64,000 bases of DNA from Bryobacter sp. CoA8 C33 (lineage in GTDB: Bacteria; Acidobacteriota; Terriglobia; Bryobacterales; Bryobacteraceae). The DNA lies in contig JAINDK010000023.1 in NCBI GenBank assembly GCA_019931185.1, forward strand, positions 62,001 through 126,000, written 5' to 3'. Position 1 is the first letter of the stretch, and each line of letters opens with the position of its first letter. Shown in pieces: positions 535 to 50,215 of this stretch. Position numbers and translations under genes: made by a program. A model generated the notes under the pieces. That model worked only from the letters and a program-made list of their open reading frames with translations, did not search any database and was not told where the DNA came from.

Positions 535-1882
535 GCACAAGTTGAAAGTGGGTGTGTCGGGGGTGCGCGGCGTGGTGGGCGAGTTCCTGACGCCGCTGCT
601 GGCGGCGGATTTCGCACAGGCGTTTGGGGCCTATGTGGGGAGGGGGCGGGTGGTGCTCGGGCGGGATACGCGCTTCACGGGGCCGATGATCGAACATGCC
701 GTGGCGTGCGGGCTGCTGGCAGCCGGCTGTGAGGTGGTGAAAGTAGGGGTGCAAACCACTCCGACGATGCAGATCTATATCGCCGAGACGGGGGCGGTGG
801 GCGGTATTGCCGTGACGGCTTCGCACAATCCCGCCGAATACAATGCGCTGAAACTGTTTAATGGCGAGGGGCTGTTCTTCAATCACTATGAGCGGACGGA
901 GCTGCTTGACTTATTCCACCAGGGTGAGTTTCAGGTGGCGACGAACGAGCAGATGCTGGGCATTGTGGTGGACGATGTGACGCCGTGGAAACGGCATATC
1001 GACCGCGTGTTGAAGCACGTGGAGGTGGAGCGGATCCGCAAGCGGCGCTTCCGCGTGGCGCTCGATGGGGTAAATGGGGCGGGATCGCGGATGAGCGTGT
1101 GGTTTCTCGAAGAGGTTTTGGGCTGTGATCTGCATGCGATTCATGTGGATCCAACCAAGACCTTTCCGCGCGAGGCAGAGCCGAAGCCGGAGACGCTGGG
1201 CGAGTTGATGCTGCTGGTGCGGGCGCATGGATGTGACGTCGGCTTTGGCCAGGACCCGGATGGAGACCGGCTGGCGGTGTGCGATGAGCTGGGCGTGATG
1301 ATCGATAACGACGACATGCTGGCGTTGGCGATCGAGGCGGCGCTGGCCAAGCAGGGCGGCGATGTTGTGGTGAATCTGACGACATCGAACGTGGTGGAGG
1401 ATGTCGCGGCCAAGTATGGGCGAAAGCTGTACCGGGCGGCGGTGGGTGAGGCGAATGTAGTGGATCGGATGAAGCGTGTGAATGCCTTGATCGGGGGGGA
1501 AGGTTCGAGCGGAGGCGTGATTTTTTCGGGCACGCATCTGTGCCGGGACAGCTACACGGCGATGGCGCTGTTGCTGGACCGGATGGCGGGCGAGGGGGCG
1601 AAGCTTAGTGAATTGGGCCGGGCTTTGCCGCGCTATCACCGGCGCGGGGGCAAAGTGCAATTCGCTCACGGCAAGCTGGGCGGGCTGATGCTGGCAATGG
1701 AGCGGCAGTATCCGGCGGCTGAGCTGGAGCGCAGCGACGGGCTGAAGTTGAATCTGGAGGATGGCTGGATTCACCTGCGTGCCTCCAACACGGAGCCGAT
1801 CTTGCGCGTTGCCGTGGAGAGCCGAAGCGAGGCGCGGGCCGAAGAAATGTTTCAGCGGGCGATGACACTGCTAAAGGGTTGA
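527..1882 (+). CDS. Phosphohexomutase (phosphomannomutase/phosphoglucosamine mutase family)
   Basis: A complete 451-aa alpha-D-phosphohexomutase, the normal length of the family. It carries the phosphoserine loop TASHNPAEYN, the metal-binding loop DPDGDRLAV, the sugar-binding loop GEGSSGG and the C-terminal phosphate loop SNTEPILRV, in the expected order. It should isomerise a hexose (or hexosamine) 6-phosphate and 1-phosphate for cell-envelope or glycan precursors. I chose the ATG at 527 (MREHKLKVGVSG) rather than an in-frame ATG 18 bases upstream, because homologues begin just before the KVGVSGVRG motif. It overlaps the upstream paralogue by 8 bases. GlmM, ManB/AlgC or Pgm activity cannot be told apart from the sequence alone. 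Confidence 0.9.
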   Translation: MREHKLKVGVSGVRGVVGEFLTPLLAADFAQAFGAYVGRGRVVLGRDTRFTGPMIEHAVACGLLAAGCEVVKVGVQTTPTMQIYIAETGAVGGIAVTASHNPAEYNALKLFNGEGLFFNHYERTELLDLFHQGEFQVATNEQMLGIVVDDVTPWKRHIDRVLKHVEVERIRKRRFRVALDGVNGAGSRMSVWFLEEVLGCDLHAIHVDPTKTFPREAEPKPETLGELMLLVRAHGCDVGFGQDPDGDRLAVCDELGVMIDNDDMLALAIEAALAKQGGDVVVNLTTSNVVEDVAAKYGRKLYRAAVGEANVVDRMKRVNALIGGEGSSGGVIFSGTHLCRDSYTAMALLLDRMAGEGAKLSELGRALPRYHRRGGKVQFAHGKLGGLMLAMERQYPAAELERSDGLKLNLEDGWIHLRASNTEPILRVAVESRSEARAEEMFQRAMTLLKG

Positions 1883-1931
1883 GGGCATTGGGAGAGCGGT
1901 AGCGCGGAAACTGTGACAAGGTGGAATTGAG

Positions 1932-4658
1932 ATGGCAAGACCTGACGTAATCGATTTGGAAGACTTTCCGCGGCGGCGGCGGACGGGGCAGGAGCAAAGC
2001 GGCGGGTTCGGGCGCTTAGGCTGGTTGTTGTTGGCGCTTATTGTGCTGGGGAGCGGCGGGACGATTGCCCGGTGGGTGATCGACTGGGCATGGTGGCAGG
2101 AGATGGGGCAAGGAGAGACCTGGCAGCAGATCCTGCTTTATGCCTGGATGCCAAGCGTGGTAGCGGGGTTGGTTGCTTTACCGGTTTTGGGGATGCTCTA
2201 TGCGCGAGGACGGCGTGGTGTCCTAACGGCGCCAAAAGCTCTGCTGGCGCTGGTGGGATCGATGATTCTGGGTATGGTCCTGATTGACGACTGGATGGTG
2301 GCGCGGTTCTTGGGATCGTTTGGAGTGGTGGCTGATGGTTGGCGTGATCCCGTGTTCGGGCATCCGATCGGATTTTATTTCTTCCAGCTTCCGTTCTATG
2401 AAATGGTGCTGCGCTACCTGCAGGGGTTGCTGGTGGTGGGGTTCATTGTGTATTGGGTAGGCAGCCGGTTTGAGCTATTGCGGGAAGGGTTTTCCCGGAT
2501 GCAGGCCGAGGATGGAGTGGACCTCCGGGTACTGAACTTGGGGGACGTGCTGAGCGGATTGCCGGTGCGGGTGGTGGTGGCGATTTTCTTTTTGTTGCTG
2601 GCTGGGCGGGCTTATCTGAGCCGTTACGATGTGCTGCGTCAGGACCACAATTTCATGGTGGGGGCGGATTATGTGGATGTGAACATTGTGCTGCCCCTGC
2701 TCTGGGGGCTGGTGGGAGCTTGCGTGGCGGGCGCGGCACTGGTGATGGCGCGCCGGGTGGGTTTGGCGGTGGGTCTTATAGTGCTTGTGTATTTGGCGGT
2801 GGGGGCGGTGCCGAAGGCGGTGAATGCCATCAGCGTCCGGCCGAATGAGATCAGCCTGCAGAAGCCATACATTGCGCGCCATATCGAGGGCACGCGAGCG
2901 GCCTTCGGGTTGGCCGAGCAGTTGAAAGAGCGGGATTACGACGCGAAGATGACGGGGAAATTCGAGCCTGCGAAATACCAGACGCTGCTTGAAAATGTGC
3001 GCTTGTGGGACTGGCAGGCATTTCATGACACGATTTCGCAGATCCAGGCGCTGCGGACCTATTATGTGTTCGCCGATACGGATGTGGACCGCTATCGCGA
3101 TGAAAAAGGCAACCTAAGGCAGGTGTTGGTGAGTCCGCGCGAATTGGATGTGCAGAAGCTGCCCGATGCACGAAGCCGCTGGATCAATCCGCACTTCATT
3201 TACACGCATGGCTATGGGATGGTGATGGCGGAAGCGAACCGGATCACGAGCGACGGATTGCCGCATTTGCTGATGCGCGACGCGCCGCTTGTATCGGAGG
3301 CGAACGCACCGAAAGTGAAGCGGCCGGAGATCTATTTTGGCGAGGCGGTACACGAGCCGGTGTTTGTGCGGACGGCGCAGGCGGAGTTCAGCTATCCACA
3401 GGGCAACGCGAACGTGCAAACACGGTATGAGGGCAAGGGGGGAATTCCCATCAGCGGATTGGGCATGAGATTGGCGGCGGCGGTGGCCTATGCGGACTGG
3501 AATGTGCTGTTGACAAATCTGCTCACAAGCGAATCCCGGATGTTGATTCATCGCAAGGTGGCGGAGCGGGTGGGCCGTTTGGCTGAGTTCGTCGCTTGGG
3601 ATGCCGATCCGTACCTGGTGGTGACCGAGCAGGGCCGCCAGGTTTGGATGATCGACGGCTATACGGTGAACTCAATGCATCCATATGCCCGAATGGCGAA
3701 TACGCGGTTTGGGCGATTGAATTACATTCGCAACAGCGTGAAGGCGACCGTGGATGCCTATGACGGTACGACAGTGCTGTATGCGTGGGATGAGAAAGAC
3801 ACGGTGCTGCAGAGCTATCGCTGGATCTTCCCTAAGCTGTTTCGCCCCAAGACGGAAATGCCTGCGGATTTGCGGTCGCATACGCGGTATCCGGAATCGC
3901 TGTTCCGGGTGCAGTCGGAAATCTACCGCACCTATCACATGCAAGATCCGGAGGCCTTCTATAATCGCGAAGATCCCTGGGATCTGGCGCGCACCGCTGA
4001 AGGCATGGACGGACGGACGGAAGCCGCGCAGCCGACCTATATGATGGCGTTGCTGCCGGGACAAAGCGAACCGGAGTTTCTGTTGTTGCAAACATTCACG
4101 CCGCGGGGCAAGCAGAATCTGATCGGCTTGATGGCCGCGCGCTGTGATGGGGAAAGGCTGGGAGAGATCGAGGTCTTGCGCTTGTCCAAGCAGGAATTGA
4201 TCTACGGGCCGATGCAAGTAGCGGCGCGGATCAATCAGGATCAGACGATTTCGAAGGATTTGACTTTGTGGAACCAGCACGGCAGCAAGGTGATCAAGGG
4301 ACAGATGTCGGTATTGCCGATGGGCGGGCAATTCTTATACGTAGAGCCGATCTACATTCAATCGAGCAACGCGCCGATGCCGGAGCTGAAGAAAGTGGCG
4401 GTGGGCTATGGAAATCAGATTGGCTATGGAAACACCTATGCCGAAGCGCTGAGCCAGTTGGGGCAAGGCGAAATGAAACTCGGCGAAGCGGCGACGGCAG
4501 CGGTGGTAGGGGGAAAGATAGAGCAGCCGGAACCGGGAGAGGGACGAATCGAGAAGATCCGTCAGCGGCTGAAGCGATACCGCGAACTAATGGGAGAAGG
4601 AAAATTTGTGGAGGCGGCGCGGGAATTGGAAGCGGTTGAATCCGAAGTAAAGCCCTAA
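1932..4658 (+). CDS. UPF0182 family membrane protein
   Basis: A 908-aa protein matching the UPF0182 (PF03699) family in length and layout. A short basic cytoplasmic tail with RRRR is followed by about seven hydrophobic segments within roughly the first 290 residues, starting at GWLLLALIVLGSG. A large, hydrophilic region of about 550 residues then follows, probably extracytoplasmic, containing family-like sequence around RYDVLRQDHNFMVGADYVDVN. The C-terminal 60 residues are rich in Glu, Lys and Arg, as in relatives. The biochemical function of UPF0182 is not known. It lies 49 bases after the mutase gene in the same direction and may be co-transcribed. Its stop overlaps the convergent neighbour by 4 bases. 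Confidence 0.9.
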   Translation: MARPDVIDLEDFPRRRRTGQEQSGGFGRLGWLLLALIVLGSGGTIARWVIDWAWWQEMGQGETWQQILLYAWMPSVVAGLVALPVLGMLYARGRRGVLTAPKALLALVGSMILGMVLIDDWMVARFLGSFGVVADGWRDPVFGHPIGFYFFQLPFYEMVLRYLQGLLVVGFIVYWVGSRFELLREGFSRMQAEDGVDLRVLNLGDVLSGLPVRVVVAIFFLLLAGRAYLSRYDVLRQDHNFMVGADYVDVNIVLPLLWGLVGACVAGAALVMARRVGLAVGLIVLVYLAVGAVPKAVNAISVRPNEISLQKPYIARHIEGTRAAFGLAEQLKERDYDAKMTGKFEPAKYQTLLENVRLWDWQAFHDTISQIQALRTYYVFADTDVDRYRDEKGNLRQVLVSPRELDVQKLPDARSRWINPHFIYTHGYGMVMAEANRITSDGLPHLLMRDAPLVSEANAPKVKRPEIYFGEAVHEPVFVRTAQAEFSYPQGNANVQTRYEGKGGIPISGLGMRLAAAVAYADWNVLLTNLLTSESRMLIHRKVAERVGRLAEFVAWDADPYLVVTEQGRQVWMIDGYTVNSMHPYARMANTRFGRLNYIRNSVKATVDAYDGTTVLYAWDEKDTVLQSYRWIFPKLFRPKTEMPADLRSHTRYPESLFRVQSEIYRTYHMQDPEAFYNREDPWDLARTAEGMDGRTEAAQPTYMMALLPGQSEPEFLLLQTFTPRGKQNLIGLMAARCDGERLGEIEVLRLSKQELIYGPMQVAARINQDQTISKDLTLWNQHGSKVIKGQMSVLPMGGQFLYVEPIYIQSSNAPMPELKKVAVGYGNQIGYGNTYAEALSQLGQGEMKLGEAATAAVVGGKIEQPEPGEGRIEKIRQRLKRYRELMGEGKFVEAARELEAVESEVKP

Positions 4659-5725
4659 GCCGTAGCTCGATGATCAACGTCCGTTCGATTTGCCCGATTG
4701 AGGGCCAATTTTTCCTCAGTGGCTGTCAGGGCCTGATTGAGTGAATCGCCGAAAGACTCGTGTGCCCCCCAAGAAAAAACCACTGAAAACGTGCCGAGAG
4801 TTTCCATTTGGTAATTCCAAAGCGACTCTGATATGGACGTGAGTTTGGCGTGGGCGGCGTCACCGCTGACGTCAGGAAAAAGCAAGAGAAATTCATCATC
4901 GGCGCGCCTGGTGAGAAAGCCACCTTGAGAAACCAGACCAGCCATCAGGCTGTCGATTGTATTGAGCAATTCTTCAGCAATTGCCGAGCCATGAACTTCT
5001 TCAAATTCCATGTAATAGTTAATGCTGATCGCAAGCGACATTCCGGTAAATGACCCTTTGTACTCAAGAAGTTGGGCAAGAACACTGCGAGGATGAACTC
5101 CGGCTGGTATCGGAATCGACAAATCGGCTGGTTGCGCACTTTCCACAACGGGACCCGCAACTTTAGTTTCCGTGCGGAAGCCGGTTTCCGGTATGTTTTC
5201 AGAGAATTCATCCAACACTTCCTCGAGGAAATCGTCGAAATTCGCCGCGGGAGCCGGGGCGGATGAATCCTCCGAGTTGAGTCGAATTCGAACGACGTTA
5301 GGAGGAAGTTCACCATCCACCACCGCAGCTTGTTGACTCGGCTCTTCCACTATGGGGGTAGCTTGCAAGGAAGGGGATGGGTTGAGTTGACGTTCTAAAT
5401 CGGAGTCTGAGAAGGATCCTCGGCGCGCTGGAAGGAGCGGTTTCTGCGCGGCTGCCAATTCAGTGGATTCCGTATTGACGACTATGGCCTTCAAGTTTAA
5501 CTCACGAAAGGACTTTGACTGCTCGGCCAACGCACGTAGCAACTTTGTATTATCCTTCTCGACCCGCTGGACCACCTCCTGGTGCCGGGCCATCAGGTCG
5601 ATGTGGCGTTCGCGAAGTCGTTCGTTCATGCCCTTCAGGTAATCCACCATCACCGCCACCGACATGAGGGCAAGCAACACGAGAACCCAAAAAACCACCT
5701 GCAGTTCATAGCTGCTTGAAATCAT
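4655..5725 (-). CDS. Membrane-anchored protein with degenerate GGDEF domain
   Basis: A 356-aa protein with one N-terminal membrane segment (about residues 8-28), then a charged, probably coiled-coil stretch (about 30-75), a low-complexity Pro/Ser/Glu linker (about 100-210) and a C-terminal domain that resembles a diguanylate-cyclase fold. Where GGDEF should be it reads RADDEF (about residues 274-279), followed by LLLFPD as in true GGDEF domains. Loss of both glycines argues against c-di-GMP synthesis, so it may be a GTP- or c-di-GMP-sensing or purely structural version. The ATG at 5725 has a GGAG eight bases upstream; an in-frame GTG lies one codon earlier. It is convergent with UPF0182, and no partner gene is evident. 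The GGDEF-fold call is by pattern, not by search. Confidence 0.6.
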   Translation of the reverse strand: MISSSYELQVVFWVLVLLALMSVAVMVDYLKGMNERLRERHIDLMARHQEVVQRVEKDNTKLLRALAEQSKSFRELNLKAIVVNTESTELAAAQKPLLPARRGSFSDSDLERQLNPSPSLQATPIVEEPSQQAAVVDGELPPNVVRIRLNSEDSSAPAPAANFDDFLEEVLDEFSENIPETGFRTETKVAGPVVESAQPADLSIPIPAGVHPRSVLAQLLEYKGSFTGMSLAISINYYMEFEEVHGSAIAEELLNTIDSLMAGLVSQGGFLTRRADDEFLLLFPDVSGDAAHAKLTSISESLWNYQMETLGTFSVVFSWGAHESFGDSLNQALTATEEKLALNRANRTDVDHRATA

Positions 5726-41109: not shown

Positions 41110-41859
41110 ATGTTCGAGCAAAGCCTGATCATAGAAGAGGGGGGAACCAGGAAAGCGAGTTCCGTTTTCATTTCGTTCCTGATCCAAGTCTCGCTGATGA
41201 CGGTCATCGTTATTCTGCCGTTGATCTATTACGAATCGATCAGCGCGGCAGCTCTGGGCAGCAGCCTGGTGGCTCCGCCGCCGCCGCCACCCCCGCCGCC
41301 CCCGCCGGCGCCGGTTCAGGCCGTGAAGGTGAAAGTCATTCCGAAGCAGTTCAACGCAAACGTATTGATGGCGCCCAAGCAAATCCCGAAAGAAATCGCA
41401 ATGATTCGGGAAGACGACCTTCCTGTTGCGACGGGAGTCACCGGCGGGGTGCCGGGAGGTGTTCCTGGCGGTGTTCCGGGTGGTGTGATGAGTGGATTGT
41501 TGAGCTCGATTCCAGGTCCCCCGCCGCCGCCGAAAAAAGAAGATCCGCCGAAGCCGAAGCCGCCCGCGGCTCCGATTCGGGTGGGTGGTAATGTGCAGAG
41601 CGCGAAACTGATACGGCAACCCCGTCCCATGTATCCACCTCTTGCCCGTCAGGCGCGCATCTCCGGCGTTGTAAAATTCAATGCCGTGATTGCCAAGGAC
41701 GGCACCATCCAAAATCTGCAGATGATATCTGGTCACCCTCTGCTCGTGCAGGCGGCGACTGAAGCTGTACGGCAGTGGGTCTACCAGCCCACGCAGCTGA
41801 ACGGCGAACCCGTCGAGGTGATTACGACGATTGACGTGAACTTCACGTTGAGCCAGTAG
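41110..41859 (+). CDS. tonB: Energy transducer TonB
   Basis: A 249-aa TonB-family protein. The N-terminus MFEQSLIIEEGG is followed by a membrane anchor (about residues 18-45). A proline block follows (eleven Pro in a row, about 56-68), then a GGVPGGVPGGVPGGV repeat and a second Pro/Lys block. The C-terminal TonB domain is about residues 165-249 (RQPRPMYPPLARQARISGVV, then AVRQWVYQPTQLNGEPVEV). It spans the periplasm to drive outer-membrane receptors with ExbB-ExbD. The ATG at 41110 has AAAGGA upstream. First gene of tonB-exbB-exbD-exbD-lipoprotein. Confidence 0.93.
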   Translation: MFEQSLIIEEGGTRKASSVFISFLIQVSLMTVIVILPLIYYESISAAALGSSLVAPPPPPPPPPPPAPVQAVKVKVIPKQFNANVLMAPKQIPKEIAMIREDDLPVATGVTGGVPGGVPGGVPGGVMSGLLSSIPGPPPPPKKEDPPKPKPPAAPIRVGGNVQSAKLIRQPRPMYPPLARQARISGVVKFNAVIAKDGTIQNLQMISGHPLLVQAATEAVRQWVYQPTQLNGEPVEVITTIDVNFTLSQ

Positions 41860-41928: not shown

Positions 41929-42654
41929 ATGCTTCTCACTATGCAAACCATGGGCTTCCTTTTGCTTCAGGAAGTCGGATTTGACGCCATCACGATGTGG
42001 AACCAGATGGGTTTCCTCGCCAAGGCCGTCGTTGTGATTCTATTTATTATGTCGGCGTGGTCGATTGGGGTCATGATTGACCGCCTAATCGCCTTTAACG
42101 CCGCCAAGACTCAAAGCCGCCAGTTCGCACCGGCCGTGGCTGGCGCCTTGCGCGAAGGCAAATTGGATGAAGCGATCAAGATCGCTGACCGATACAAGAA
42201 ATCCCACCTGGCCAAGGTGGTGGTAGCCGGCTTGCAGGAATTCAAGGCCCATCAGTTGAGTTCGGAGATTTCCGGTGAGACGATTGAAGCGTCCAAGCGG
42301 GCTCTCGAGCGGGCGGAGGCGATTGTGCATGCGGAATTGAAGCGTGGCGTATCGTCGCTGGCGACAATTGGTTCCACGGGTCCCTTCGTCGGTCTGTTCG
42401 GCACCGTCGTAGGTATCGTGAACGCCTTCAAAGGTATCGCCAGTGAAAAGGCAGCCGGTCTCGGCGCCGTAGCCGGTGGTATTTCGGAAGCTCTCGTAAC
42501 AACTGCTATCGGTCTGTTCGTGGCTATCCCGGCCGTCATGATGTTCAACTACTTCACGAACAAAGTGGAAGCGTTTGACATCGAGATGAACAACTCAAGC
42601 TCGGAACTGCTCGACTACTTCATCAAGCGTTCGCAGGCTGCCCGCCGCGCCTAG
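41929..42654 (+). CDS. exbB: ExbB/TolQ/MotA-type proton channel subunit
   Basis: A 241-aa inner-membrane protein with three hydrophobic segments (about residues 30-50, 140-165, 175-200). The MotA/TolQ/ExbB core reads FVGLFGTVVGIVNAFKGI, then GGISEALVTTAIGLFVAIPAV. With ExbD it forms the proton-driven motor that energises TonB. The Shine-Dalgarno CAGGAGAT lies 9 bases before the ATG. Direct neighbours are tonB upstream and two exbD genes downstream. Confidence 0.93.
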   Translation: MLLTMQTMGFLLLQEVGFDAITMWNQMGFLAKAVVVILFIMSAWSIGVMIDRLIAFNAAKTQSRQFAPAVAGALREGKLDEAIKIADRYKKSHLAKVVVAGLQEFKAHQLSSEISGETIEASKRALERAEAIVHAELKRGVSSLATIGSTGPFVGLFGTVVGIVNAFKGIASEKAAGLGAVAGGISEALVTTAIGLFVAIPAVMMFNYFTNKVEAFDIEMNNSSSELLDYFIKRSQAARRA

Positions 42655-42757
42655 TCCTTCGGGAACTAAAAGAAGATCCATGCGAGTATAGCCGTGAGCG
42701 GGCTGGCGGATCCAGCCCGCTCCGGTGGGTAAACAGCATGGGAAAGGGAACACCGAT

Positions 42758-43195
42758 ATGGCAAGAAAGAAAGCTCCACCGCCCGTATCCGACATCAACG
42801 TTACTCCGATGGTCGATGTAATGCTCGTCATGCTGATCATCTTCATGGTTATCACGCCCATGTTGCAGAAGGGTGTGAGCGTCGAAAAGGTGCGGACCAA
42901 GAATCCGATCGCCATGAAAGATGCCGACAAGGAAGACGCCATCCTAGTGAGTGTGACCCGCGCCGGTGACACTTATTTGGGTACAACCCGCATGGCCCCG
43001 GATCAGATGCCAACCAAAATCAAGGACATGCTGACGAATAAGCCGGAAAAAGTTGTTTACATCAGCGCGGACCGGCGGGCCAAATATGAACGTGTGGTTA
43101 CCGTGATTGATGAAATCCGCAATGCCGGAGTCGAGCAGCTCGGCATGATCGTCGAGGATATGCAGGGCTCACAATCGGCTGGCGAATCAAAGTAA
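42758..43195 (+). CDS. exbD: ExbD/TolR-type biopolymer transport protein (first copy)
   Basis: A 145-aa single-pass protein. After a short cytoplasmic tail it has the ExbD motif SDINVTPMVDVMLVMLIIFM, in which the Asp in VDVMLV is the proton-path residue. A periplasmic domain of about 100 residues follows (VSVTRAGDTYLGTTRMAPDQ). Start at ATG 42758 with AAGGGA upstream; an upstream GTG is not supported. It is one of a pair of ExbD paralogues in this operon. Confidence 0.92.
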   Translation: MARKKAPPPVSDINVTPMVDVMLVMLIIFMVITPMLQKGVSVEKVRTKNPIAMKDADKEDAILVSVTRAGDTYLGTTRMAPDQMPTKIKDMLTNKPEKVVYISADRRAKYERVVTVIDEIRNAGVEQLGMIVEDMQGSQSAGESK

Positions 43196-43228: not shown

Positions 43229-43657
43229 ATGGGAATGGCAATGGGCGGCAAGGGGGGACCTGCAGCCGACATCAACATGACTCCGATGATCGATGTACTC
43301 CTGGTACTGATCATCATCTTCATGGTGATCACACCGTTGACGCCAAAGGGGCTGGAAGCGCGCGTGCCGCAGCCGCCTCCACCGAATCAGCCGCCGCCGC
43401 CGCCCGAATTGGACCGCACGGTGGTTGTGATTATTGAAAAAGACAAGAGCATGAAGATCAATCAGGAGTCTGTCCTGTTTGAAAATTTGTCCAAGCGGCT
43501 TGAGGACATCTTCAAAACGCGCGCGGAACGCGTTTGCTTTGTTAAGGGTGATCCCGACCTCGAATACCAGGAAGTGGCCAAAGTGATTGACGTCGCCAAG
43601 GGCGTTGGTATTGATCAGGTTGGGTTAATGACCAAGAAAGTCGAAGAGGGCAATTAG
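43229..43657 (+). CDS. exbD: ExbD/TolR-type biopolymer transport protein (second copy)
   Basis: A 142-aa ExbD paralogue. It carries ADINMTPMIDVLLVLIIIFM with the same motor Asp. The periplasmic domain begins with a proline-rich linker (PPPPNQPPPPPE) that the first copy lacks. Strong Shine-Dalgarno AGGAGA before the ATG at 43229. Tandem exbD genes with one exbB are common in Acidobacteriota and may let the motor form heteromers. Confidence 0.92.
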   Translation: MGMAMGGKGGPAADINMTPMIDVLLVLIIIFMVITPLTPKGLEARVPQPPPPNQPPPPPELDRTVVVIIEKDKSMKINQESVLFENLSKRLEDIFKTRAERVCFVKGDPDLEYQEVAKVIDVAKGVGIDQVGLMTKKVEEGN

Positions 43658-46822: not shown

Positions 46823-47148
46823 GCAGAAACGAACCCGAGCATATCGCCGTGTCGAAATCCAAAGGCATCGAAATCGACTGGCATGATGGGACTCACAGCA
46901 GCTACAACCTCGCGTTCTTGCGGGATAACTGTCCCTGCGCGGTGTGCACGGGAGCGCACGGTACCGAACCGCGAAAAACGAACTATCAGAACCCGAGTCC
47001 GTTTCAGATGTACAAGCCAGCACTAAAAATGCTGAGCTGTGAAGCAGTGGGCAAGTATGCTTTGAGGGTGAATTGGAACGATGGACACTCGAGCGGAATT
47101 TATAGCTTCGAGTACTTGCGACAGTTGGCTACAACAAGCGGAAGTTGA
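46819..47148 (+). CDS. DUF971 (gamma-butyrobetaine hydroxylase-like N-terminal) protein
   Basis: A 109-aa protein of the DUF971 family. Core sequence: IDWHDGTHSSYNLAFLRDNCPCAVC, in which cysteines of the CPCAVC type with a following His bind metal, and WNDGHSSGIYSFEYLR near the C-terminus. In other bacteria this domain occurs alone or fused to Mrp/ApbC-type proteins involved in iron-sulfur handling. It overlaps rel by 4 bases, so translation is coupled. Its 3' end overlaps the convergent TonB gene by 20 bases. Confidence 0.85.
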   Translation: MSRNEPEHIAVSKSKGIEIDWHDGTHSSYNLAFLRDNCPCAVCTGAHGTEPRKTNYQNPSPFQMYKPALKMLSCEAVGKYALRVNWNDGHSSGIYSFEYLRQLATTSGS

Positions 47149-48274
47149 CTTCGACCGTGGCTTGCACCGGGACGGCAGCACCATCCTTGAAGCCTGGCTT
47201 GAAACGCCACTTCATTACGGCCTCAATGGCCTTTTCGTCGAGACCCAGACCAAGTGGGCGAATTACGCGAATATCACGAGCTTTGCCGGTTGGATCGACA
47301 ACGATGGCGAGCACCACTGTACCCTGAAACTTCGCTTTTCGGGCTTCTTCGCTGTATTCCGGCTCCACCTTGAACAGAACCGAAGGCGCGGAGACGCCAC
47401 CACCCACGCGGTAGGCCCCGCCACCAGTGCCGCCGCCTGAACCAGGACCAAAGCCAGCGCCACTTCCCGATCCCACGCCACCGCCTCTGCCAGATCCAAA
47501 GCCACCGGATCCAGAACCCTGGGAGGGTGCGCTTAGCCCGGAAAGAGGGTCACCCAACATGGGCAAGTTCACTTTCGGCAGCGCTTCTGCCTGGGCGATA
47601 ATCGTAGGCTCCATCACCAGTTTTGGCTGCTCGACGCGCTGCAGTTGCGGTGGCACGAATTGCTTCGGCGCGACCTTCGGCAATTTACCCTTGCTGGGAG
47701 GAGTTACCTCGCGGGCGCCGCCGCCACCGCCTCCTCCCATCGATTGCTTCTTGGGCGCGGTCTTGGGAATGTACTCGCTCAGCGGCGCGGCGAGAGGAGT
47801 GATGTCTCTCACCGCCTTCTGTACTTCCTTGTTCGTACTTAGAAAAATCAGCAAAGCGACGACAGCGCAGTGGATCAACACAGAACCAAACGCGCTGCGT
47901 GATTCGTTGCCCGCGGTTTGACCCCAAATGTCCTTGACAGCAACGGGACGCGCCGTCACATCGAGCGGCTGCATTCTGGGAGGGTTGATCGTTTCCTTGA
48001 TGTTCCGCCAAAGAGAAACCAGGACATGTTCTTCCTTCAAGCCGGAAAGTGTACCCGCCAAATGGTCATCGACAGGACGCGAACTCATCTCAAGCGGCTG
48101 CAGCTTGGGAGGATGGATCGTCTCCTTGATGTTTCGCCACAGGGAAACCAAGACAGGATCTTGCTTCATGCCGGAGAAGGCCTGGGTCAATTGATCTTCT
48201 GGGCTAGCCACATTTTGTTGTTTTTCCGTGGGAATCACGTTATTCTCTGCCCGTTCTACCGACGATGTCCTCAT
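47129..48274 (-). CDS. TonB-family protein with duplicated N-terminal motif
   Basis: A 381-aa protein. A C-terminal TonB domain (about 300-381, with VEPEYSEEARKAKFQGTVVL and MKWRFKPGFKDGAAVPV) follows a membrane anchor at about residues 129-147 (GSVLIHCAVVALLIFLS). In between lie glycine-rich runs (GGGGGGG, GSGSGGFGSGRGGG) and a proline/lysine segment. Before the anchor, in the presumed cytoplasmic tail, is a tandem repeat of about 42 residues: VLVSLWRNIKETI-PP occurs at about 41-56 and 84-99, each followed by LQPLEM/MQPLDV and RPV. Similar single copies are seen in acidobacterial TonB proteins. It is convergent with DUF971 and stands apart from an ExbB/ExbD pair. Confidence 0.82.
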   Translation of the reverse strand: MRTSSVERAENNVIPTEKQQNVASPEDQLTQAFSGMKQDPVLVSLWRNIKETIHPPKLQPLEMSSRPVDDHLAGTLSGLKEEHVLVSLWRNIKETINPPRMQPLDVTARPVAVKDIWGQTAGNESRSAFGSVLIHCAVVALLIFLSTNKEVQKAVRDITPLAAPLSEYIPKTAPKKQSMGGGGGGGAREVTPPSKGKLPKVAPKQFVPPQLQRVEQPKLVMEPTIIAQAEALPKVNLPMLGDPLSGLSAPSQGSGSGGFGSGRGGGVGSGSGAGFGPGSGGGTGGGAYRVGGGVSAPSVLFKVEPEYSEEARKAKFQGTVVLAIVVDPTGKARDIRVIRPLGLGLDEKAIEAVMKWRFKPGFKDGAAVPVQATVEVNFRLL

Positions 48275-48402: not shown

Positions 48403-49071
48403 CTAATCTGGCCTAGCGGCAGTGGGAGTGTCGAAAAACACCACGTGGCGGTAGGCTCCTTCCACGACTTCTTCAAACTTGTACAACTCGACCGGGAGGC
48501 GAAAACTTCCCTCACTACTTTGATGCACAAGAAGGCGATGAGCTTGAGAAGTTTCGGGTCCAATCAAAAAATTCAGAGTTGAATCACCCGCCGTGAGCGA
48601 GCAGGAGGCGGAATTGGCCAACGTGTTGCGAACCACAATCTCCAACTCCATCCGTCCAAACCGGCCGGAGACAATTGAGCGGACACTGACGATGAATACT
48701 CGTGGTGTAGCCACGACTTCCAGCGGATTGGCAATCCGCTCGAGGCATCCGCTCAGGCTCAACTCGTTCGAACGGTCAAAGCGAAGCAGCCCGCTCAAAT
48801 CTTCACTATCCAATTTGATGTCATTGACTTTCAATGGGCCACTGCACGCGCTACGGTCTCGCTTGATGCGCAGGTGGCGATTGCGATGGGAACCAGGAAG
48901 AGAAAGAAGGAACCTACGCTCGCCGGAGCGAGATGGCGGGAGTTCCTCGTGCCGCAAGGACTCGTTGGAAAAGGTCGGATCGGAATCCATGGCGGCAAGC
49001 AGAAAAGCCTGCGTCGAGAAGGCGAGAAAAGGGATTTGCAACAAAAACAACCCAACGCATTTCAATGTCAT
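48403..49071 (-). CDS. Secreted hypothetical protein
   Basis: A 222-aa protein with a signal-peptide-like N-terminus (LKCVGLFLLQIPFLAFSTQAFL) and a beta-strand-rich remainder containing a cysteine pair (SGCLERI, ASCSLTAGDS) and FDTPTAARPD at the end. I do not recognise a family. The start is the ATG at 49071; the longer frame upstream overlaps the divergent membrane gene. Coding is supported by the signal peptide and by the neighbour starting divergently 28 bases away, but it could be an antisense frame. Confidence 0.5.
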   Translation of the reverse strand: MTLKCVGLFLLQIPFLAFSTQAFLLAAMDSDPTFSNESLRHEELPPSRSGERRFLLSLPGSHRNRHLRIKRDRSACSGPLKVNDIKLDSEDLSGLLRFDRSNELSLSGCLERIANPLEVVATPRVFIVSVRSIVSGRFGRMELEIVVRNTLANSASCSLTAGDSTLNFLIGPETSQAHRLLVHQSSEGSFRLPVELYKFEEVVEGAYRHVVFFDTPTAARPD

Positions 49072-49099
49072 CCGAACAGCTAGAAGTGGAAGTAGTAAT

Positions 49100-50215
49100 A
49101 TGACGTACGCGCGAGCTCGTTTGTGGTTGGGGATCAGCGGTGTTGGGATAATGGTTCTTGTCTCTATCATTACTCTTTGGTCTAATTGGCCGCACCGTAT
49201 ATTTGATGGTTTTGAACAAAACATTGTTCACGACTCGCTCGGCCTGGCGTGGATTGTGGCGCTTTACGCAGCGATCCATATTCCCCTAGACTATATTGGC
49301 GGCTACTGGCTGCCTTGTCACTACTCCCGACAGTGCCTGGTCTTTTCCTATTTTGCTTCGCAGTACATCCGTGGACTTCTGGTGCAGAGTCTTTTCTTTA
49401 TCGTTTCGGGAACCATTCTGCTGCAGGTAGGCCGGACAGGCGGCCGGGGCGCTGCGCTTTTGTTTCTGGCCACTTTGATGTTATTGATGATTGAGTTGCA
49501 GGACCGGTTGGCCGCTTTTGTTGCGGGTCTCAAGATAAGTGGTGAGGAATCGCGCGACGGCCGTAGAGTTTTGATGTTTTCGGGTATGGACTCCGGCTTT
49601 TCCGGGGGCCTTGCCGGCCTGCCGGGACGGGAACGTGTCGTGGTTCCATCGATATGGAGGCGCATGCTGCCACAATCTGCATTGGATGCGACTCTCGAAC
49701 GGCGGTACGCGGCGCTCGCGACGGGAGCCAGGCTCCGTGGCCTTTTGGTGGCCATGGGCTGGAATCTGGTTGGTTTTTATCTGAGCTCGACCCTCCCCGC
49801 GGCGGGCGTGAGCACCTTGGCCGAGTTATTTACGACAGCGCTTTATTTCACATTCTGGAGTTTTCTGGGTCTGCTCTTGTTGCCGACGCTAAGCCGGTTT
49901 GGCGTTTATGAACTAGATCAGTTCGCCCGGCGGCATGGCATGAGTGAGAACGAATTTGTGCTTACGGTGCGGGAACTGGATCAGTTGCAGGACGACGAGC
50001 CCAAGAGATCCATGGGGGTGGAAGCGATTTTTCATCCGGTACCGAGCGTGGAATCCCGCATCGAACGCTTTCGCGGTGACTGGCGACGTCTGGGGGCTTG
50101 GAATGCGGCACGTTACGCGCTGTTCTTGAGCTGGCCTTGTCTCGGGTTCTTGAATCGGGCAGTACACTGCAACTCGGGACGCCCAGAACTTTGGGTGATG
50201 CTGCCGGTCGATTAA
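49100..50215 (+). CDS. Polytopic membrane protein with M48-peptidase-like C-terminus but no HExxH
   Basis: A 371-aa protein with about five or six hydrophobic segments (LWLGISGVGIMVLVSIITL at the start, then WIVALYAAIHIPLDYIGGYW, LLVQSLFFIVSGTILLQV, LYFTFWSFLGLLLLPTL). The C-terminal region HPVPSVESRIERFRGDW resembles the sHPsleeRI motif that ends M48 peptidase domains, but I see no HExxH zinc motif, so it is probably not an active protease. I chose the ATG at 49100; the long upstream frame is antisense to the secreted protein and lacks homology. It ends 4 bases into the convergent esterase. Confidence 0.6.
   Translation: MTYARARLWLGISGVGIMVLVSIITLWSNWPHRIFDGFEQNIVHDSLGLAWIVALYAAIHIPLDYIGGYWLPCHYSRQCLVFSYFASQYIRGLLVQSLFFIVSGTILLQVGRTGGRGAALLFLATLMLLMIELQDRLAAFVAGLKISGEESRDGRRVLMFSGMDSGFSGGLAGLPGRERVVVPSIWRRMLPQSALDATLERRYAALATGARLRGLLVAMGWNLVGFYLSSTLPAAGVSTLAELFTTALYFTFWSFLGLLLLPTLSRFGVYELDQFARRHGMSENEFVLTVRELDQLQDDEPKRSMGVEAIFHPVPSVESRIERFRGDWRRLGAWNAARYALFLSWPCLGFLNRAVHCNSGRPELWVMLPVD

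Follow-up and report, generated by a model that had tools for sequence, protein, structure and literature searches.

A close point of reference for the protein discussed here is Escherichia coli TonB, in which the SHLS residues occupy positions S16, H20, L27, and S31. The cytosolic part is not equally short in all TonBs. Pseudomonas aeruginosa TonB1 has a long, non-repeated cytosolic N-terminal extension before its anchor, and we know of no report of a repeat unit of the kind described below in that protein. The premise of the initial annotation that classical TonB has nearly no cytoplasmic part thus applies to E. coli TonB but not to TonBs such as P. aeruginosa TonB1. In the Myxococcus GltJ/AgmX-type TonB-like proteins, the cytosolic N-terminus preceding one transmembrane (TM) segment recruits cytosolic partners to an ExbB-like motor, and this region consists of folded zinc-ribbon and GYF domains. 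Membrane anti-sigma factors of the zf-HC2/ZAS type, in which a cytosolic finger is accompanied by an ECF sigma gene, offer a further comparison.

The TonB-family protein considered here is encoded in a stretch of 64,000 nucleotides from Bryobacter sp. CoA8 C33 (hereafter, the window; Table 1). Like E. coli-type TonB, it has an N-proximal SHLS anchor, a periplasmic linker, and a TonB_C domain, and ExbB and ExbD are encoded in the same genome. Its cytosolic part, however, is approximately 125 residues long and contains a repeated motif, compared with about a dozen residues in E. coli TonB; its linker is Gly-rich, and its gene is located outside the ExbBD operon. Judged from the description of TonB1, the long cytosolic extension is common to both proteins while the repeat is found only in the window protein. 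Similarly, the GltJ/AgmX-type proteins, again by description, also have a cytosolic region before one TM segment, which in the window protein is made up of tandem linear motifs.

The assignment to the TonB family in the initial annotation is well supported. Residues 304-380 match Pfam TonB_C (PF03544; E 5e-20, 72 bits against a cut-off of 24.6), NCBIfam TIGR01352 matches the protein (E 2e-13), the domain matches TonB2 among PDB sequences (2k9k; E 3e-10), and Foldseek returns TonB C-terminal domains (best 6i97_D; E 3e-7), with no fold match outside this domain. The anchor lies where it was first placed, and a motif scan identifies S131, H135, L142, and S146 with the exact spacing of the E. coli SHLS residues. 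This motif has a role in binding of TonB to the motor (PMC12204202). Among the 131 unit-bearing homologs, the full SHLS is kept in only 11, and S-x3-H in 67. The linker does not have the Pro/Lys-rich character that is typical, if not strictly defining, of TonB and contains GGGGGGG and repeated GSG instead. The window protein is best explained as a predicted ExbB/ExbD-driven TonB energy transducer.

Table 1. Features of the unit-bearing TonB gene, the motor gene cluster in the window, and paralog loci elsewhere (numbered within each locus).
Feature	Position	Strand	Basis
TonB-family protein, 381 aa	47129..48274	-	ORF and translation; GGGAG a few bases before the ATG start
Unit copy 1 (distal), residues 26-68, EDQLTQAFSGMKQDPVLVSLWRNIKETIHPPKLQPLEMSSRPV	48071..48199	-	Repeat finder, register, unit HMM match
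Predicted amphipathic helix, copy 1, residues 41-53	48116..48154	-	AF2, local pLDDT about 66-78; hydrophobic moment 0.63
Unit copy 2 (membrane-proximal), residues 69-111, DDHLAGTLSGLKEEHVLVSLWRNIKETINPPRMQPLDVTARPV, then AVKDIWG	47942..48070	-	Repeat finder, register, unit HMM
Predicted amphipathic helix, copy 2, residues 84-96	47987..48025	-	AF2, local pLDDT about 79-86; hydrophobic moment 0.67
Transmembrane anchor, residues ~128-146	47837..47893	-	Sequence, motif scan, AF2 helix 124-147
Gly-rich periplasmic linker, about residues 180-291	47402..47737	-	Sequence
TonB C-terminal domain, residues 304-380	47135..47365	-	Pfam, PDB sequence, Foldseek
Second TonB, lacking the unit, at the head of the TonB-ExbB-ExbD-ExbD cluster	41269..41850	+	Pfam TonB_C; own-genome search
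ExbB motor subunit	41929..42654	+	Pfam MotA_ExbB, E 1e-33
Two ExbD genes	42725..43195, 43229..43657	+	Pfam ExbD, E 7e-24 and 8e-24
ECF sigma and finger-TonB, locus L144	611-2370		
ECF sigma and finger-TonB, locus L174 (=L326)	1087-2873		
ECF sigma and finger-TonB, locus L261	1991-3834		
ECF sigma and finger-TonB, locus L269	2054-3834		
ECF sigma and finger-TonB, locus L270 (=L325)	3509-5271		
ECF sigma and finger-TonB, locus L330	779-2670		

The cytosolic region carries a tandem repeat, as initially noted, with a period of 43 rather than approximately 42 residues. At the DNA level, the repeat finder detects a direct repeat of 109 nt (47938-48046 and 48067-48175) with 79% identity and a spacing of 129 nt, i.e., 43 codons. 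When the two copies are aligned in register, 95 of 129 nt and 26 of 43 aa are identical; the stretch VLVSLWRNIKETI (residues 41-53 and 84-96) is the same in both and is followed by xPPxxQPL. Scored against itself, the N-terminal stretch of 123 residues reaches 150, far above the maximum of 44 among 2000 shuffles, and a chance origin of the repeat is therefore excluded.

An alignment of relatives gives the unit consensus (E)xPW-Y/F-xSLxxN-hydrophobic-R/K-D/E-x-F-x-P-P-K-L-P-P-L-x-L/V-T-S-K/R-P-V/I-x-V. The unit can be divided into an amphipathic helix, (P)WxxSLxxN-hydrophobic-(K/R)(D/E), and an extended proline segment, FxPPKLPPLxLTSKPxxV. The hydrophobic moment of the helix part is 0.58 compared with 0.28 for shuffled sequences and peaks at 90-100 degrees. 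In membrane-proximal units, conservation is highest in the proline segment, above that of the helix, with 4.1-4.2 bits for P-P-L, 3.8 and 4.0 bits for the S and P of SKP, and 3.4-3.6 bits for K-L. Since these conserved residues are not just hydrophobic, they suggest a sequence-specific contact. The membrane-proximal copy has an additional VxVKDIWG segment, which has been lost from distal copies. For the window protein and for the tail-anchored family discussed below, AF2 places roughly one helix in each unit and leaves the remaining sequence disordered, at moderate to low confidence; a folded domain for the units was rejected on this basis. Pfam has no match across residues 26-111, the sole NCBIfam match to the unit region (residues 96-106) has an E value of 0.39, and a PDB search with the unit gave nothing better than E 0.07. 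A literature search, mostly at the level of titles and abstracts and covering few subscription journals, returned no description of the motif or of a TonB/anti-sigma fusion. The protein itself belongs to a known kind, TonB, but neither the repeat module nor the tail-anchored family appears to have been described in the literature and databases searched.

On which side of the membrane do the units reside? Since the TonB domain has to lie in the periplasm and the protein has a single anchor, the repeats are expected to face the cytoplasm. In the motif scan, 5-14 residues separate the end of the last unit from the anchor in all 131 unit-bearing TonB homologs, by which the opposing outcome named beforehand, a periplasmic repeat, is ruled out. 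Two other architectures agree: a basic RDLRRSR stretch precedes the C-terminal TM segment of the tail-anchored proteins, and in some TonB paralogs, whose genes adjoin an ECF sigma gene, the unit is preceded by an anti-sigma-type finger; both support the cytosolic side. Cytoplasmic sidedness, as proposed in the initial annotation, is thus strongly inferred from these arrangements.

In these paralogs, an H-x3-C-x2-C anti-sigma-type finger is followed by the unit, the anchor, and the TonB domain, and the ECF sigma gene overlaps the TonB gene. The sigma genes are identified by Pfam, and the finger gives only weak zf-HC2 matches (best E 0.005). Within the window's family, about 7 of 121 genomes contain strong matches to the finger-bearing form. 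The six loci in Table 1 have the cytosolic finger and the ECF sigma gene in common with zf-HC2/ZAS-type anti-sigma factors, and the finger-bearing TonB may itself be an anti-sigma factor. Unlike these factors, the window protein has neither such a zinc finger nor a sigma gene as neighbor and does not classify as an anti-sigma factor.

In a phylum-wide search of 396 genomes, 44 that belong to the window's class carry the unit, and the only matches outside this class are two short ORFs that are probably spurious. With a broader model, 222 of 299 genomes of the class carry it; the motif, for which the initial annotation had pointed to Acidobacteriota, is thus class-wide. Applying the unit HMM to 148 homologs gives one unit in 72 proteins, two in 35, three in 23, four in one, and none detected in 17; weak copies may be miscounted because the threshold was 6 bits. 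One unit adjoining the membrane is the common state in the class, and the main feature is the unit, not its duplication. Two loci are mentioned separately: L295 (4107-6167) encodes a 687-aa protein with three TonB_C stretches, adjoining a one-unit TonB, while L059 (1462-2451) has one in-frame TAG between the unit and the TonB body, reflecting either a pseudogene or a sequencing error.

All seven sampled genus-mates, which are 81-87% identical to the window protein, have a single unit. The two window copies have RNI and QPL in common, and the genus-mates have neither. Since these residues are private to the window, its second copy is most readily read as recent and lineage-specific, having arisen in its own lineage or having been homogenized there. 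On a quick tree computed from the protein with the repeat columns removed, the one-versus-many copy state changed at least 17 times, an approximate number. One old duplication common to all is ruled out by the single-copy genus-mates, the private RNI/QPL, and the many changes needed on the tree. Moreover, repeat periods differ among homologs (about 38, 43, and 45-53 aa). These changes with different periods indicate that multiplication of the unit has repeatedly been tolerated or favored. dN/dS between the two window copies is about 0.2 (dN 0.16-0.22, dS 0.71-0.82). Among orthologs, it is 0.07-0.31 for distal units and 0.66 for one middle unit of a three-unit clade, rough estimates given lengths of 90-129 nt and dS near or above 1. 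At this resolution, distal copies too are under purifying selection, with one weaker case.

The unit also occurs without a TonB domain: a second family carries it in three copies and lacks TonB_C. Its members, of ~230-260 aa, consist of the three units, a variable linker, the basic stretch, and the C-terminal TM segment. The check proposed in the initial annotation was whether the unit always precedes a TM anchor and a TonB domain; it precedes the anchor in all 131 TonBs, but the TonB domain is not a constant companion. Of the 150 genomes of family f2, 36 encode a tail-anchored protein of this kind, with matches that span almost the entire model at E below 1e-60. Exactly three units were found in each of the 20 proteins read (L305-L324), which come from many genera; they are spaced about 41-43 aa apart and are conserved while the linker varies. 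These proteins have no SHLS motif, and their units are about 60-80 residues from the anchor. None of the 20 matches Pfam or NCBIfam, and no neighboring gene is common to more than a few of the loci. The existence of this family favors a function that is separable from force transduction.

We tentatively favor the reading that the unit is a cytosolic docking motif for a putative cytosolic or membrane-peripheral partner, with the repeats tuning avidity. In this model, TonB would be anchored with its N-terminus in the cytoplasm and driven by ExbB/ExbD. Each unit, with its short amphipathic helix and extended proline segment, would act as a linear docking motif, and binding to the putative partner would position or regulate the Ton complex. 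Extra tandem copies would raise avidity or hold several partner molecules together. The tail-anchored three-unit proteins would present the motif without force transduction and are probably scaffolds or competitors for the same putative partner. The anatomy of the sequence, the recurrence of the unit, its place ahead of the anchor, the selection on it, and its presence in a second family are observed; docking and avidity are inferred from them. Isolated helices in disordered sequence are as expected of docking motifs, and both this feature and the exact conservation of three units alongside a variable linker count for docking. On the other hand, no partner was found among the gene neighbors, which vary by lineage, in some members of the class the units are degenerate (family f3) or escape detection altogether, and an amphipathic helix adjoining the membrane may simply rest on lipid or ExbB.

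The last point leads to a different role, in which the unit lies against the inner leaflet or against the ExbB pentamer on its cytoplasmic side and determines TonB-ExbBD coupling or stability, with extra copies being spare or cooperative. In the window, the ExbB and ExbD genes are about 4.5 kb from the unit-bearing TonB gene, in a cluster headed by the second TonB, and this ExbB is likely the motor of both TonBs. The same proximity to ExbBD, together with TPR, RelA, and GBBH-N genes, is seen in four Bryobacteraceae loci, the window included, and is consistent with a motor-side role. The TonB gene is located by ileS-lspA in 10 of 10 loci examined of families f2 and f92; no conserved operon partner was found among the loci examined, whose neighbors are mostly housekeeping genes. 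(Upstream of the window gene, long ORFs overlap on opposite strands at 48403-50215 (48403-49224, minus; 48593-50215, plus), and the gene model there is uncertain because the plus ORF has only a weak M48-N match in Pfam.) The constant distance of the last unit from the anchor, the retention of VxVKDIWG in the membrane-proximal copy, and the amphipathic helix also fit this role. However, units are found up to three repeats from the membrane, the tail-anchored proteins without SHLS hold them far from the anchor, and conservation peaks in the proline segment and not in the helix. Collectively, a motor-side role seems rather unlikely, and the initial suggestion that the repeat sets motor stoichiometry found no support in the analysis.

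The occurrence of one unit type in two membrane protein families raises the possibility that units bind each other, such that TonBs, and TonB with the tail-anchored proteins, cluster in the membrane. A one-unit TonB accompanies the tail-anchored protein in 30 of 32 genomes and is present in 33 of the 63 genomes that lack this protein (Fisher p 3e-5, from a hand count of match spans and a test that ignores shared ancestry). We nevertheless consider self-association improbable: in AF2 models of chains with two or three units, the units do not pack together confidently, and the unit is proline-rich, has a net charge near zero, and, apart from its single short helix, contains nothing that resembles a coiled coil. 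Functionless extra copies that arose by neutral slippage of tandem repeats within a disordered tail would account for the highly variable copy number, the young window copy, and the faster middle copies of the three-unit clade, but this reading is likewise improbable given a dN/dS of about 0.1-0.3 in other distal copies and the invariant three units of the tail-anchored proteins.

Returning to docking in a wider frame, the units may represent a hitherto undescribed cytosolic linear-motif system, confined as far as searched to one acidobacterial class, that links proton-driven Ton motors to a cytoplasmic partner. Its units would be multiplied in tandem and would also be present in tail-anchored adaptors, and some lineages would have added an anti-sigma-type finger by fusion. 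We regard this broader proposal as possible, with considerable reservation. If true, Ton complexes would own a regulatory or positioning arm inside the cell. TonB has been studied almost wholly from the periplasmic side. A conserved and repeatedly multiplied cytosolic motif that also occurs in a distinct family of membrane proteins implies that Ton motors of an abundant bacterial phylum have a partner or regulator in the cytoplasm. The unit peptide, about 35 residues long and present in one to four natural copies, would be a concrete bait for the putative partner, and the natural copy-number series would provide ready material for a test of avidity.
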